Below, piece by piece: positions 34,304 to 62,667 of a stretch of 64,000 nt of DNA. The translations under genes were made by a program, and so were the position numbers. This DNA comes from Halobacteroides halobius DSM 5150 (GTDB lineage Bacteria; Bacillota; Halanaerobiia; Halobacteroidales; Halobacteroidaceae). The notes below the pieces were generated by a model. The model was not told the origin of the DNA and searched no databases. It was given only the letters and a program-made list of their open reading frames with translations. Location of the stretch: positions 372,001-436,000 of the forward strand of contig NC_019978.1 of NCBI RefSeq assembly GCF_000328625.1. The letters are read 5' to 3'. How positions within the stretch are numbered: position 1 is the stretch's first letter; every line of letters starts with the position of its first letter.

Positions 34304-35289
34304 GTGAATATTTAGAGTTTGAAAAACCTCTGATTGAATTAGAAGAAAAGATTAATGAATTGAATAGTTTTATGCAAGATAAGGATATTGACTTAACAGA
34401 TGAGGTTAAGCGCTTAGAGAAGCGAGCTAATAATTTACGAGAAGAAATATTCTCTGAATTAAAGCCTTGGGAAATTTTAAAGATTGCCCGACATGGTGAG
34501 AGACCTACTACTTTAGATTATATCGATCTAATTTGTGATGAATTTGTTGAATTGCATGGTGATAGAACTTATGGAGATGATCAAGCTTTAGTAGGAGGAA
34601 TTGCTAAGATAGATAACATGCCTGTAACTATTATCGGGCATCAAAAAGGAAAGACTACTAAAGATAATATTAATCGTAACTTTGGTATGGCCCATCCTGA
34701 AGGTTATCGTAAGGCCTTACGATTAATGGAGCAAGCAGAAAAATTTGGTAGACCAATTATATCTTTAATCAATACGCCAGGAGCTTACCCTGGAATTGGA
34801 GCTGAAGAGAGGGGACAAGCCGAAGCTATTGCTAAGAATATGATGGAGATGTCAGGAATCTCTGTTCCAATCATTGTAGTTATTACAGGAGAAGGAGGTA
34901 GTGGTGGAGCATTAGGTATTGGTGTAGGTGATAGAGTTCTAATGTTAGAATATACTTACTATTCTGTTTGTTCTCCTGAAGCATGTGCAGCTATTTTATG
35001 GAAGGATGCTAATGAGGCTGAAACCGCAGCCAAAGCATTAAATATAACTGCGCAAGACTTATTAGAATTAGGCATCATAGATAGTACAATTGCTGAACCT
35101 CCTGGAGGAGCTCATAAAAATTATGAGCGTAGCGCTCAATTATTAAAGGAGACAATTATGCAAGAAATCAGTGAACTGCAAGAACTTGATACAGCTACTT
35201 TGTTAGATAATAGGTACAATAAATTCAGAAAAATGGGGTATATTAAAAACAAGTTTGAAGAAGTTGTTGAGGAGAAACAAGCTAATTAA
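34300..35289 (+). CDS. accA: Acetyl-CoA carboxylase carboxyltransferase alpha subunit
   Basis: 329 residues, partner of AccD. Landmarks are [49 protein letters not shown] and [19 protein letters not shown] overlap with accD ensures paired synthesis. After its stop the non-coding structured element of 35.3-35.8 kb begins, before pfkA. Confidence 0.96.
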
Positions 35290-35826
35290 GGAGCTATGAT
35301 ACAGCTTATAAATTCCTAGTTAAAACTAGGTAAAGTTGATCGTTGCTCTCAAGGCAAAGGGAGTGTAGAGAACTGAAAAGTTTTTAGCACAATGCCTTCG
35401 TGTCCTGTGGACACTTCGTAACAAAAGGCGTTTCCTACGTTATTTGGTTAAAGAGTTTTTATTAAACTCAACAAGGTTATCACACTTTGGAATGTATCCA
35501 TCAGTTCCAAATCGCAGGCAGAGCCTTGCTCTGTAAACTACCCTGTGGCACTAAGGAAGAAACCTCGTCTAAGTCTAGTTCTTCTGGATATGAAAGGCTA
35601 ACACCGAAAGTGCATAAGCCCCATTTGACATTGCCTATAGCAGGGTATTTACATACCCTCGCTATTGACTACATCTGGGAACTATAGCCAATGGTTATGT
35701 TCACCAATGTACTCTAAGAGCAAGAATCTATATGATTCTGCGACATAGAAGGGAATTACCCCGCAAGGGAGATTGGTTCGAGAGAACCACAAATCCTAGT
35801 GGGAAACCATACCCACTAGGTAACTA
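35290..35826 (+). ncRNA. Unidentified large structured RNA-like element
   Basis: About 530 nt without a credible gene between accA and pfkA, packed with hairpins. GNRA-capped ones are AACT-GAAA-AGTT (35371-35382) and GGTTC-GAGA-GAACC (35775-35788). Others are GTGTCC/GGACAC (35400-35414), CAGAGC/GCTCTG (35519-35533), GGGTAT/ATACCC (35643-35658) and AGAATC/GATTCT (35723-35739). AAGGCA (35351) can pair with TGCCTT (35393). Similar palindromes bound it: CCTAG/CTAGG at 35315-35330 and CCTAGTGGG/CCCACTAGG at 35795-35820, both continuing GTAA. GC content is visibly higher than its surroundings. I do not recognise the class. A 66-codon frame (35487-35687) runs through hairpins and has no ribosome site. 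Confidence 0.5.
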
Positions 35827-35875
35827 TAATAATATTTAGTTAGTTTCAGATAAGTTAAAACAAGGAGGAAATAGA

Positions 35876-36880
35876 ATGAATAAAATAGGAGTTTTAACTA
35901 GTGGGGGAGATGCTCCAGGGATGAATGCTGCTGTTAGAGCAGTTGTTCGAAAAGCCCTTCACGAAGGTTTAGAAGTAGTAGGTATTAAACGAGGTTATTC
36001 TGGAGTGATTGAAGGAGACTTCATTACTTTAGATCGTAGTTCAGTAAGTGATATTATCCAACGAGGAGGCACATTTTTACGTTCTGCTCGTTGTGAAGAG
36101 TTTAGAACTAAAGAAGGAAGAAAAAGAGCTGCTAAGAAACTAAGAGAAGAGGGAATTGAAGGCTTAGTAGTAATTGGTGGTGATGGCTCTTTTACTGGCG
36201 CTAAATTATTAAATGAAGAAACAGGAATTAAGACTATTGGTGTACCTGCTACTATTGATAATGATATTGCATGTACAGATGATTCTATTGGTTATGATAC
36301 TGCTATGAATACTATTATTGATGCTATCACTAAAATCAGAGATACTGCTAGTTCACATGAAAGAGCATTTGTAATTGAAGCTATGGGTCGTCACGCTGGA
36401 TTTTTAACTTTAGCTGCTGGGTTAGCTGGCGGAGCAGAGTCCATTTTAGTTCCAGAGATAGATTTTGAGATGGATGAAGTTTGTGAAAAAATCCAACATG
36501 ATTATGAAGAAGGTAAAATACATAGTATTGTTTTAGTAGCAGAAGGCGTAGAGCTTGGAAATGTAGAATTTGAAACTAATAGAAACCCTGATGAAAGTCC
36601 TGCATTTTTAATTGGTCGAGAAATTAATGAAAGAACAGGATTTGAGACTCGAGTTACTATCTTAGGTCATATTCAGCGGGGTGGTGCTCCAACTGGGCGT
36701 GATAGACTATTAGCTAGTAGATTAGGAGCTTCTGCTGTGGATCAATTATTAGCTGGTAAAAGTAATAAAATGGTTGGTTTAATTCATAATACAGTAAAGG
36801 TAGCTCCAATTGAAGAAGCTATTGAAAGTAATAAAGAGTTGAATGAAGAGGTATATAAATTAGCTAATATACTAACTTAA
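35876..36880 (+). CDS. pfkA: ATP-dependent 6-phosphofructokinase
   Basis: Phosphorylates fructose 6-phosphate, the committing step of glycolysis. 334 residues. TSGGDAPGMNAAVRAV opens the chain; GGDGSFTGA has Gly where PPi-linked enzymes have Asp, which indicates ATP use. The catalytic loop is PATIDNDIACTD (PGT in most relatives), and MGRHAGFLT and GHIQRGGAPTGRD follow. AAGGAGG precedes the ATG. Followed by pyk, as in many Firmicutes. Confidence 0.95.
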   Translation: MNKIGVLTSGGDAPGMNAAVRAVVRKALHEGLEVVGIKRGYSGVIEGDFITLDRSSVSDIIQRGGTFLRSARCEEFRTKEGRKRAAKKLREEGIEGLVVIGGDGSFTGAKLLNEETGIKTIGVPATIDNDIACTDDSIGYDTAMNTIIDAITKIRDTASSHERAFVIEAMGRHAGFLTLAAGLAGGAESILVPEIDFEMDEVCEKIQHDYEEGKIHSIVLVAEGVELGNVEFETNRNPDESPAFLIGREINERTGFETRVTILGHIQRGGAPTGRDRLLASRLGASAVDQLLAGKSNKMVGLIHNTVKVAPIEEAIESNKELNEEVYKLANILT

Positions 36881-39304: not shown

Positions 39305-41418
39305 GTGTGCTCTGTAGTCTATGATGATAGTAGGTGTAAGTCCTGCCTATTCTGGAAGAATGGATAATATGGTTGAGATATTGTGGCACTCACAGACGAA
39401 ATGGGTGAGCAAACGGAGAAAACAAACGTCAACCTAAGTTAATAAAGAACAGGATATGAAGTCAACAGTAACAGGGTGTTCATTGTGAGATGTAATCTGA
39501 AGAGTTTGAGGCGAAAAATCAGTCCGGAACAATATGTGAACCGAAGGTGGCATTCATTAGTGACGATCTACCAAAAGGATGGAGAAGTCCAAAGCTGACT
39601 TACAGACCATTGGAGTATGTTAGATTAATGAGTGTGATTATGGTCGGAATGATTGGAATATAGCATAGGTGACCAGAGGATGCTCTAATATGGTCTTTAT
39701 AGAAATCTATAAAGATAAGTGATGATATAACCTGAATAGGGAAAGTCAAAGCGATGAAATATTAGAGTTCAGAAGCTATCATAGTAGTGAAAAAAAAAAA
39801 AAAAAAAATCAATGAAAGTTGATTACAGTGAAGGATAGCCAGGTTATTGAAGTTTAGAATTGAGTGTTGATGGTATTTAAATCAAAATGGTTTAAACATT
39901 GTTAAAGACAATAAGTCTTAAAAGAAATAGCGGACAGAAAATCATAACTGGAAGCGTGATGAATTTAAGAAAAACCATGACCTAAGTAGTAGTAAACTAA
40001 GAGGTGCGATTGGCGAGAGCTTAGAAGACGTGCTTAGGAATGCTACGAATATAGGGGTTTAGATATTAAGACAGGATAGGAAGAACTGGTAAGTCGTGAG
40101 GTAGGATAGGTAGAAAAAAAAATTAGTTCGCTATATAGTATAAAAGATTTAGTGACTAAGAAAAGACATTTACATTGTGCAGCTCAGAAAGTTTTGAATA
40201 ATGGTGGTTGTGGAGGGATTGACGGTGTAGAAGTTGAAGAATTTAGAGAAAATTACACTAAGAATATGAGTGCTTTATATCGCCAGTTAACAGAAGATAG
40301 ATATGAGCCACAACCAGTTCTAAGAACGTATATCTCAAAAGGAAATGGAGAACAAAGACCACTAGGTATTCCAGTAATTAAAGACCGAATTGCCCAACAA
40401 GCAGTGAAACAGATTCTAGAGATACACTTTGAAGAAATATTCTGCGACTGTTCTTATGGTTTTAGACCTAATAGGTCAACCGAAGATGCAATTAAGAAAG
40501 TAGAAGAATATAAAGAACAAGGTTATAATTGGGTATTAGACACAGATGTCAAATCTTACTTTGATACAATAGACCATGAAATTTTAATGGAGCTGATAGC
40601 AGAGGAAGTAAGTGATGGTTGGATATTAGATATTATTAGGTCGTGGCTTACTATAGGTGTCATGACTGAGAAAGGAAAAGAAGAAACAACGGAGGGAACT
40701 CCACAAGGAGGCGTAATTTCTCCACTTTTAGCAAATATCTACCTACATCACTTTGATAAGAAAATGACGCGTCGAGGATATAAGATAGTTAGATTTGCCG
40801 ATGACTTTATAATTATGGCTAAGAGTAAAGCTAAAGCAGAACGTGCTTTGGAAGTAACTCGCCAGATTATAGAAAATGAATTAAACTTAAGACTACATCC
40901 TCGGAAAACAGTAATTACGAATTTTAATGATGGATTTAAATTTCTAGAATTTAAATTTTATAATTGTGATTATAAAAAGCCAAAAGAGAGCTCTATTAAA
41001 AGTTTCAAGGATAAAGTAAGAAAGAAAACCAAAAGGAATAGGTCAATAGGAGTAGCTGTAATGATTGATGAGCTTAATTTAATTATTAGAGGTTGGGGTA
41101 ATAGTTTTCTACTAGGAAATATTAAAGGACTATATAAAAAGTTAGATGGTTGGATAAGAATGAGAGTACGTTGTTTTATAGAAGGAAAGAAGGCGAAAGG
41201 GCAGAATTATCGCCTTCCTAATAAAATATTAAGAGATTTAGGACTAGAATCACTGCTTACCGATGTGCTTTAGACAAGAGTAAAATATACATTTGTGGCA
41301 ACACAAAGACGATAACTTACTCTCTGTTAAGGAGCAACAATGACCGAAAGCTGTATACGGGAGAACCGTACGTGCAGTTTGACAAGAGGTCCCAGCCGTG
41401 AGGCTGGTCCTACTTTAT
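39305..41418 (+). mobile_element. Group II intron, copy 1 (class C-like)
   Basis: Starts GTGTGCTC right after a terminator T-run, the insertion habit of bacterial class C introns. An RNA-rich 5' part (39305-40110) precedes the reverse transcriptase. Domain V is at 41348-41381: triad AGC, arms AGCTGTA/TGCAGTT and TACGG/CCGTA, GAGA loop, CG bulge. Domain VI is the CCCAGCC/GGCTGG hairpin with a bulged A in CCTAC. The 3' end is placed at TTTAT, with a few bases of uncertainty. Copy 2 is 50200-52306. A run of 19 A at 39790-39808 is 11 A in copy 2. Confidence 0.92.
40152..41273 (+). CDS. Group II intron reverse transcriptase/maturase, copy 1
   Basis: A 373-residue intron-encoded protein for splicing and retrotransposition. 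RT blocks seen are KDRIAQQAVKQIL, GFRPNRSTEDAI, LDTDVKSYFDTIDH, GTPQGGVISPLLANIYLH and RFADDFIIMAK (FADD for the usual YADD). A maturase X domain follows (KTKRNRSIGVAV to GWGNSF). There is no endonuclease domain, as in class C. The only usable start is GTG at 40152; the frame continues upstream to a poly-A tract (VEKKISSLYSIKDL) without a start codon. The residue before the first catalytic Asp is Thr here and Ala in copy 2. Confidence 0.9.
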   Translation: MTKKRHLHCAAQKVLNNGGCGGIDGVEVEEFRENYTKNMSALYRQLTEDRYEPQPVLRTYISKGNGEQRPLGIPVIKDRIAQQAVKQILEIHFEEIFCDCSYGFRPNRSTEDAIKKVEEYKEQGYNWVLDTDVKSYFDTIDHEILMELIAEEVSDGWILDIIRSWLTIGVMTEKGKEETTEGTPQGGVISPLLANIYLHHFDKKMTRRGYKIVRFADDFIIMAKSKAKAERALEVTRQIIENELNLRLHPRKTVITNFNDGFKFLEFKFYNCDYKKPKESSIKSFKDKVRKKTKRNRSIGVAVMIDELNLIIRGWGNSFLLGNIKGLYKKLDGWIRMRVRCFIEGKKAKGQNYRLPNKILRDLGLESLLTDVL

Positions 41419-50199: not shown

Positions 50200-52306
50200 G
50201 TGTGCTCTGTAGTCTATGATGATAGTAGGTGTAAGTCCTGCCTATTCTGGAAGAATGGATAATATGGTTGAGATATTGTGGCACTCACAGACGAAATGGG
50301 TGAGCAAACGGAGAAAACAAACGTCAACCTAAGTTAATAAAGAACAGGATATGAAGCCAACAGTAACAGGGTGTTCATTGTGAGATGTAATCTGAAGAGT
50401 TTGAGGCGAAAAATCAGTCCGGAACAATATGTGAACCGAAGGTGGCATTCATTAGTGACGACTCACCAAAATAATGGGGAAGTCCAAGGCTAACTTATAG
50501 ACCATAGGAATATGTTAGGCTAATGAGTGTGATTATGGTCGGAATGATTGGAATATAGCATAGGTGACCAGAGGATGCTCTAATATGGTCTTTATAGAAA
50601 TTTATAAAGATAAGTGATGATATAACCTGAATAGGGAAAGTCAAAGCGATGAAATATTAGAGTTCAGAAGCTATCATAGTAGTGAAAAAAAAAAATCAAT
50701 GAAAGTTGATTACAGTGAAGGATAGCCAGGTTATTGAAGTTTAGAATTGAGTGTTGATGGTATTTAAATCAAAATGGTTTAAACATTGTTAAAGACAATA
50801 AGTCTTAAAAGAAATAGCGGACAGAAAATCATAACTGGAAGCGTGATGAATTTAAGAAAAACCATGACCTAAGTAGTAGTAAACTAAGAGGTGCGATTGG
50901 CGAGAGCTTAGAAGACGTGCTTAGGAATGCTACGAATATAGGGGTTTAGATATTAAGACAGGATAGGAAGAACTGGTAAGTCGTGAGGTAGGATAGGTGA
51001 AAAAAAAAAATTAGTTCGCTATATAGTATAAAAGATTTAGTGACTAAGAAAAGACATTTACATTGTGCAGCTCAGAAAGTTTTGAATAATGGTGGTTGTG
51101 GAGGGATTGACGGTGTAGAAGTTGAAGAATTTAGAGAAAATTACACTAAGAATATGAGTGCTTTATATCGCCAGTTAACAGAAGATAGATATGAGCCACA
51201 ACCAGTTCTAAGAACGTATATCTCAAAAGGAAATGGAGAACAAAGACCACTAGGTATTCCAGTAATTAAAGACCGAATTGCCCAACAAGCAGTGAAACAG
51301 ATTCTAGAGATACACTTTGAAGAAATATTCTGCGACTGTTCTTATGGTTTTAGACCTAATAGGTCAACCGAAGATGCAATTAAGAAAGTAGAAGAATATA
51401 AAGAACAAGGTTATAATTGGGTATTAGACGCAGATGTCAAATCTTACTTTGATACAATAGACCATGAAATTTTAATGGAGCTGATAGCAGAGGAAGTAAG
51501 TGATGGTTGGATATTAGATATTATTAGGTCGTGGCTTACTATAGGTGTCATGACTGAGCAAGGAAGAGAAGAAACAACGGAGGGAACTCCACAAGGAGGC
51601 GTAATTTCTCCACTTTTAGCAAATATCTACCTACATCACTTTGATAAGAAAATGACGCGTCGAGGATATAAGATAGTTAGATTTGCCGATGACTTTATAA
51701 TTATGGCTAAGAGTAAAGCTAAAGCAGAACGTGCTTTGGAAGTAACTCGCCAGATTATAGAAAATGAATTAAACTTAAGACTACATCCTCGGAAAACAGT
51801 AATTACGAATTTTGATGATGGGTTTAAATTTCTAGAATTTAGATTTTATAATGGTGATTATAAAATGCCAAAAGAGAGCTCTATTAAAAGTTTCAAGGAT
51901 AAAGTAAGAAAGAAAACCAAAAGGAATAGATCAATAGGAGTAGCTGTAATGATTGATGAACTTAATTTAATTATTAGAGGTTGGGGTAATAGCTTTCTAC
52001 TAGGAAATGTTAAAGGACTATATAAAAAGTTAGATGGTTGGATAAGAATGAGAGTACGTTGTTTTATAGAAGGAAAGAAGGCGAAAGGACAGAATTATCG
52101 CCTTCCTAATAAAATATTAAGAGATTTAGGACTAGAATCACTGCTTACCGATGTGCTTTAGACAAGAGTAAAATATACATTTGTGGCAACACAAAGACGA
52201 TAACTTACTCTCTGTTAAGGAGCAACAATGACCGAAAGCTGTATACGGGAGAACCGTACGTGCAGTTTGACAAGAGGTCCCAGCCGTGAGGCTGGTCCTA
52301 CTTTAT
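50200..52306 (+). mobile_element. Group II intron, copy 2 (class C-like)
   Basis: Near-identical to 39305-41418 but 7 nt shorter. The difference is explained by two poly-A tracts: 11 instead of 19 A near 50685-50695, and one extra A before the reverse transcriptase. It is again inserted directly after a terminator. Domains V and VI are identical to copy 1. The 3' end was set by where the two copies stop matching, with a few bases of uncertainty. Confidence 0.92.
51040..52161 (+). CDS. Group II intron reverse transcriptase/maturase, copy 2
   Basis: 373 residues, differing from copy 1 at about ten positions, including Ala for Thr before the first catalytic Asp (LDADVKSYFD), which is the commoner form. 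Domains and motifs are otherwise as in copy 1. The start is the GTG at 51040; upstream in frame a TGA stands right at the poly-A tract. Either copy could serve both introns. Confidence 0.9.
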   Translation: MTKKRHLHCAAQKVLNNGGCGGIDGVEVEEFRENYTKNMSALYRQLTEDRYEPQPVLRTYISKGNGEQRPLGIPVIKDRIAQQAVKQILEIHFEEIFCDCSYGFRPNRSTEDAIKKVEEYKEQGYNWVLDADVKSYFDTIDHEILMELIAEEVSDGWILDIIRSWLTIGVMTEQGREETTEGTPQGGVISPLLANIYLHHFDKKMTRRGYKIVRFADDFIIMAKSKAKAERALEVTRQIIENELNLRLHPRKTVITNFDDGFKFLEFRFYNGDYKMPKESSIKSFKDKVRKKTKRNRSIGVAVMIDELNLIIRGWGNSFLLGNVKGLYKKLDGWIRMRVRCFIEGKKAKGQNYRLPNKILRDLGLESLLTDVL

Positions 52307-61827: not shown

Positions 61828-62638
61828 TATTGTAATAATACTAGAACTAAAAGACCTATCAGTCAAATGAGAGGGTTAACACCTTGAAGGGCTGACGATG
61901 ATACTCCGAACTGCAATAAATTGATTAAGTAATTTATTGTAGTAAGCTCGGTGAAGTCGGGTGAGAGTTGTCGTAATCATACGAAAATTATTCAGCGGTG
62001 GATAATGCAACTTATAGCTCGGTCGCCCATAAAGTATCTAAGATAAGAATATACCATATAGGTATTGACGAATTCCTGAATCGTACGGGTCTAGAATTCA
62101 AATAACTAGAAATGGTTATACCAACAAAGTTTGGGGTATGTGGGGTAAGTAAGATTCTATATTATGAAAATCCTTATACACTTATAGGGTGTATATAAAA
62201 CATACAGGCTCATAGGGAATATCTACGGATATATGTTAAGGGTAAGGTCTTTTGGAACAAGGGAAGTCAGCGACAGGGAGGTCTTAATACCTTTGAACTG
62301 GTGGTATAGAAAGAATAATATAATATACCTTAATGCTGATGAAAGTAGTGGCACAGTACCATTGAAGCCTTAATAACAAGAGGTGGAGGGATAGCCACAA
62401 GTGAAATAAAATGATAATAAAAGTTATTAATATAGTACATTGGTTTCTTGTAAGACTAATAAAAGTGAAGGGTTTAGACCTTTTAGCTGCCCAATGGGAT
62501 TCTGAGAAGAGTTTTCAGCTATATATGATAAATAGTAATAATCATTTTATTTCATGGCACGCCTTGTGAGTTTGAAAATCTCACGCAGGGTGTAGAATGG
62601 GGGAAAGCTGGAGATGTTTTCAAAAGCTTACCTATCAT
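61793..62638 (+). mobile_element. ORF-less group II intron
   Basis: Starts GTGCGACTTG inside the transposase fragment. Domain I- to III-like sequence follows (GTGGCACAGTACC and GGTGGAGGGATAGCC are typical). The domain IV stem is TGAAATAAAATGAT (62402) with ATCATTTTATTTCA (62541), and holds no gene. Domain V (62558-62593) has a CGC triad, stems ACGCCTT/AGGGTGT and GTGAG/CTCAC, and a GC bulge. Domain VI ends with a bulged A in CTTACC. The 3' end near 62638 is approximate. Unlike the two class C copies it is not beside a terminator. Confidence 0.75.
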
Positions 62639-62667
62639 TATAAAGAAGACGCTTTGAAAGAGAAGAG

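Follow-up and report, generated by a model that had tools for sequence, protein, structure and literature searches.

The element between accA and pfkA of Halobacteroides halobius is very probably an IscB transposon copy that has lost its IscB gene and kept its omegaRNA scaffold

We describe a structured element between accA and pfkA of Halobacteroides halobius. It is homologous to the RNA that precedes IscB genes, both at three other loci of the same genome and in other genera. It has a conserved RNA structure and is inserted in the Shine-Dalgarno (SD) sequence of pfkA. The best explanation, which we consider very probable, is that an IscB (OMEGA) transposon has left a non-autonomous copy here: both ends and the whole omegaRNA scaffold remain, and the IscB open reading frame (ORF) has been lost. 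We infer that the element is immobile, is transcribed together with its neighbours and can provide a guide for IscB supplied in trans. This places an unrecognised intergenic RNA in the family from which Cas9 arose. The main interest lies in the SD insertion rule and in the intact orphan guide RNA.

Coordinates refer to the window, the whole 64,000-nt stretch of DNA that was analysed. The accA stop codon is at 35287-35289 and pfkA starts at 35876. The intervening 586 nt contain no gene; the longest ORF has a TTG start and 66 codons. This bears out the initial annotation, which reported a gene-free stretch rich in hairpins. The + strand RNA of the element folds at -174.7 kcal/mol, compared with a mean of -131.4 for dinucleotide shuffles (z -7.2). 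The minus strand fold is weaker (z -5.5). Two hairpins with GNRA caps and similar CCTAG palindromes at both ends had also been described, and all were found. The element, at 39.9% GC, is indeed richer in GC than its surroundings, though the excess is modest (accDA has 35.0% and the window 33.0%). The extent initially proposed was 35290-35826. The element is slightly longer, since it reaches the pfkA SD, 40 nt further on (~35866). The features are as follows, with L010 to L015 denoting other copies in the genome.

35293 to 35866 (574 nt), + strand: whole element, consisting of left end, omegaRNA and right end without an IscB ORF, from comparison of seven own-genome copies and relatives.
35277 to 35292, + strand: putative guide, 16 nt of host DNA (accA 3′ end) with TTAAGGA at its end.
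35315 to 35330, + strand: left-end CCTAG palindrome CCTAGTTAAAACTAGG, also in L010 and L011.
35343 to 35789, + strand: omegaRNA scaffold with all 39 consensus pairs formed; a covariance model of foreign loci matches 35344-35651.
35395 to 35434, + strand: optional peripheral hairpin of ~38 nt, in four of six own-genome scaffolds and in G012, a distant member of the family; in the alignments other relatives are without it.
35512 to 35542, + strand: peripheral insert of ~29 nt, found in the alignments only in Halobacteroides halobius copies.
35636 to 35745, + strand: structured scaffold insert of 110 nt, in four own-genome copies (two with IscB, two without); relatives are without it.
35759 to 35771, + strand: GNRA-capped hairpin CCCCGCAAGGGAG (GCAA loop).
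35775 to 35788, + strand: GNRA-capped 3′-terminal omegaRNA hairpin GGTTCGAGAGAACC (GAGA loop), with three compensated pairs relative to L010.
35795 to 35820, + strand: right-end CCTAG palindrome CCTAGTGGGAAACCATACCCACTAGG, common to L011 and L012 and recognisable in L015.
35821 to 35868, + strand: right-end tail of ORF-less copies, ending AAGGA/GG; identical or nearly so in L011, L012 and L015.

The right-end palindrome resembles a terminator on the minus strand only. Scans for sigma-70 promoters gave no more matches than expected by chance. The right-end tail gives pfkA a full SD, and the AGGA of the putative guide segment is the left half of the SD that was interrupted.

The initial annotation suggested a search for further copies as a way to define the ends. 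The Halobacteroides halobius genome (2,649,255 bp, one contig) contains seven dispersed copies, including that in the window, and the ends are placed at about 35293 and 35866. In L010, L013 and L014 the same RNA runs directly into an IscB ORF of 419-422 amino acids. Hence, the window element is an IscB element without its ORF. This agrees with one proposal of the initial annotation, a mobile non-coding element such as an IscB-linked RNA that lost its gene. The window copy, L011 and L012 are ORF-less; L015, 122 nt long, is a relic that retains hardly more than the ends. Over ~480 nt, beginning at the left end and stopping 15 nt short of the IscB start, the window copy and L010 are 90% identical. 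The ORF-less copies and the three IscB-bearing copies have different right ends, so the former are not simple deletions of the latter. We infer, from these alignments, either descent from a different IscB-bearing parent, now lost, or an exchange of ends. L012, from which part of the scaffold is deleted, is a mosaic: its 5′ part resembles L013 and the rest resembles the window copy. Such mosaic patterns suggest recombination among the copies. The 110-nt insert (window, L010, L012 and L013) occurs nowhere else in the genome, and was rejected as an independent dispersed repeat. It may impair the scaffold, yet two IscB-bearing copies also have it. The ~38-nt hairpin at 35395-35434 is near-identical in the distant G012 omegaRNA (L038) and missing from closer relatives, a distribution suggesting that IscB elements have swapped RNA modules. 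At L010 (2393-3178), the frame of an rsmE-like upstream gene enters the element and the C-terminal AMKQLINS is encoded by the transposon left end.

The three linked ORFs are identified as IscB by NCBIfam NF040563 (guided_IscB, E 7e-86 to 1e-94), and all match Pfam RRXRR and HNH. The RuvC D, E and H..D motifs and the HNH motif are kept in each. Their closest solved structure is HfmIscB (PDB 9K2Z; E 6e-129 over 375 amino acids), which they resemble, at the protein level, in RRXRR/PLMP, RuvC and HNH architecture. The window copy differs in having no such ORF, which is present in three of the seven copies. No Y1 TnpA (PF01797) was detectable in the Halobacteroides halobius genome, while a Y1 TnpA is present in 11 of 13 genomes from the order. 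Hence, the family is probably immobile here now, and present mobility cannot be claimed. A plasmid search for IscB gave no match. In an Acetohalobium-like genome (G001), the second IscB copy (L042, 1700-2467) carries a truncation, and after it come a decayed frame for Y1 TnpA and a TnpB-like start. An IS605 may have inserted into an IscB element here.

IscB relatives were sampled from the order and the phylum, from named genomes (Fuchsiella, Natroniella, Lachnospiraceae, Eubacterium, Selenomonas) and from viral contigs. A related RNA lies 5′ of IscB in every relative with enough upstream DNA. Covariation among homologues, proposed initially as a check, is evident: RNAalifold of a 19-RNA alignment gave 39 consensus pairs, 31 with compensatory changes. 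All 39 are formed in the window copy and likewise in L011. At 12 of the pairs maintained in the window copy, both positions differ from IscB-bearing L014. The window copy was among the RNAs that gave this consensus, so the independent test is a covariance model made from foreign loci alone. This model, from 13 IscB loci of other genera, matched the window copy (45.5 bits, E 8.9e-13) and also recovered every other scaffold of the genome.

The initial annotation could not match the element to a known family, and this is true of Rfam but not of its affiliation. An Rfam search of the element found nothing at gathering score, with a chance lncRNA at E 4.8 only, and the HEARO model (RF02033) did not match the window copy even at E 5. 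However, the element belongs to the known IscB omegaRNA/HEARO system. Full-length matches to HEARO (1-211 of 211) were found on the right strand in the seven relatives searched. These scored 22-38 bits (37.6 bits at best, with E 1.7e-4), and none reaches the gathering score of 83. On the basis of these sub-threshold matches the family is a divergent form of HEARO/omegaRNA, a branch that Rfam misses. The position 5′ of IscB is the same as for HEARO; the window copy differs by inserts of ~38, 29 and 110 nt, which are probably why Rfam missed it.

The 3′ hairpin of the scaffold changes with the presence of the ORF. In IscB-bearing copies it holds the IscB start codon (GGCAGAGATGCC), closely preceded by an SD. 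The sequence in ORF-less copies is GGTTCGAGAGAACC, without the start codon but with pairing kept through changes on both sides. The compensated hairpin favours, without proving, a maintained RNA function in ORF-less copies.

This bears on the strongest competing explanation, that the window copy is a dead relic: what is left of an IscB transposon in MITE- or PATE-like form, which does nothing in trans and persists only because it is recent and harmless. Consistent with this, the genome is without TnpA, L015 consists of ends only, and the deletion in the L012 scaffold may reflect neutral decay. In addition, PATE-like IS605 remnants are known from Halanaerobium hydrogeniformans (PMC7290912). Those ORF-less IS200/IS605 derivatives share gene-free palindromic ends and dispersed copies with the element described here. 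However, PATEs are ends only, whereas the window element keeps the whole guide RNA scaffold. The window copy and L011 retain 39 of 39 pairs, at least as many as any IscB-bearing copy, and the last hairpin was compensated after loss of the start codon. We therefore doubt that the element is a dead relic, while regarding this as a realistic possibility.

In all 18 copies tabulated, from several bacterial families, the right flank starts with GG and a start codon follows within 5-12 nt. The left flank ends in AGGA, save for three variants (AAGA, GGGA and TGGA). Joining the flanks restores an SD in all 18 cases, and AGGAGG in most. Left flanks of 20 copies have AGGA or a near variant at the end, and two more right ends (L032 and L043) fit the GG and start codon pattern. 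With the genes of the window as background, the chance of a right end falling in the SD zone is 0.0034 when all positions are counted, or 0.014 when only intergenic ones are. For the seven own-genome copies, all of which are in this zone, the chance is ~6e-18 or ~1e-13, respectively. Palindromic ends and constant AGGA/GG flanks are observed. Since AGGA/GG is present at both ends, the cuts can be placed only to within 4 nt. We favour AGGA^GG as the cut point because IscB-bearing near copies then restore AGGAGG too.

Comparison with accA-pfkA junctions lacking the element, also suggested initially, was possible in nine relatives. The gap is 22-44 nt in these, with no element and, in most, a recognisable SD. 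On sequence grounds, members of this IscB group appear to insert at the ribosome-binding sites of bacterial genes. In Acetohalobium, L041 is a classical IscB from a different group (35% identical); ATGA follows its end, and the insertion seems to break up a short reading frame. The SD rule is therefore not general to IscB, on the basis of this one case, judged by eye. A literature search found no description of SD-directed IscB insertion, which is weak evidence of novelty; such insertion by an IscB group seems to be previously undescribed.

The location could also mean that the host has adopted the element as a regulatory leader. Translation or transcription of pfkA would then be tuned by the RNA itself or by IscB that it guides without cutting. 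TldR-type TnpB derivatives are host-adopted regulators and offer an analogy. The element does sit directly in the pfkA SD and supplies a new one. However, the same arrangement precedes unrelated genes (hup, rplK, mtaB and a permease), as follows from target choice. Furthermore, catalytic motifs are kept in the IscB copies and the accA-pfkA junctions of relatives are without the element. We consider a regulatory leader improbable.

For the IscB transposon subgroup as a whole we propose a mechanism, tentatively and at slightly less than even confidence. Briefly, the SD (AGGA^GG) would be both the target and the probable TAM; copies would be co-oriented with genes, making host-transcribed omegaRNAs guided by the flank; the right end would repair the ribosome-binding site; and ORF-less copies would be guides, served in trans, that guard their own insertions. 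The target is found on a single strand, ahead of a gene start, so insertions that split AGGA^GG would be co-oriented with the operon and host transcription could make a guide-bearing RNA. In the window, the element would be transcribed with the accD-accA-pfkA operon and the accA end would become the 5′ guide of the omegaRNA. The right end would supply a replacement SD (AAGGAGG in ORF-less copies, ..AGG in those with IscB) so that pfkA is still translated. IscB from the three IscB-bearing copies would be loaded by the window omegaRNA in trans. Movement would have stopped, or would depend on an outside transposase.

IscB omegaRNAs have the guide at the 5′ end, of which ~16-17 nt are used, and the TAM adjoins the target (PMC9640706). 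The predicted layout of the element is like that of the OgeuIscB omegaRNA, with its 5′ guide of ~16-17 nt, 3′ TAM and scaffold of ~206 nt (PMC9640706), although the scaffold here is longer. The TAM of OgeuIscB is NNRR (PMC9640706), whereas the insertion signal here is AGGA^GG within the SD. The predicted TAM begins with GG and the predicted target is the element-free accA-pfkA junction. The target site made by joining the flanks would be AAGCTAATTAAGGA followed by GGAAATAG, and the element-free junction would read TAAGGAGGAAATAGAATG. Since guide and adjacent GG would recreate this junction, IscB would cut only chromosomes that have lost the element, favouring its retention. No other genomic site lies within one mismatch of the flank-joined target. 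A search for off-site targets of the window guide returned only its own locus at one mismatch, with other matches at the background level of reversed patterns.

If the insertion rule holds, it amounts to a safe-harbour strategy: the element would target a mark of gene starts, use host transcription and return a working ribosome-binding site. A GG-type TAM is predicted for this IscB group. Copies with and without IscB in one genome form natural pairs for testing the action of orphan omegaRNAs in trans.

Two other origins put forward initially can be set aside. A self-splicing mini-intron or unrelated ornate large RNA would account for the size, the high degree of structure and the GNRA loops, and group II introns do occur elsewhere in the window; however, there is no Rfam match to group I or II introns or large RNAs in the region, the element lies between genes rather than inside them, and it is homologous to RNAs upstream of IscB, which leaves this reading next to no probability. 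A TnpB-linked (IS605/IS1341) reRNA without its gene is just as remote: palindromic ends of the IS200/IS605 type are shared, but the option is refuted by the linked ORFs, every one of which encodes IscB and none TnpB, with the RNA 5′ of the ORF, as in IscB, and not at its 3′ end.

Finally, group II intron signatures in the window comprise a D1-D4-5 match and three domain V-type matches (61842-62033, 62557-62641, 41346-41418 and 52234-52306). The domain V-type matches at 41346 and 52234 are equal in score and length. This suggests that the 64 kb window contains several group II intron copies.
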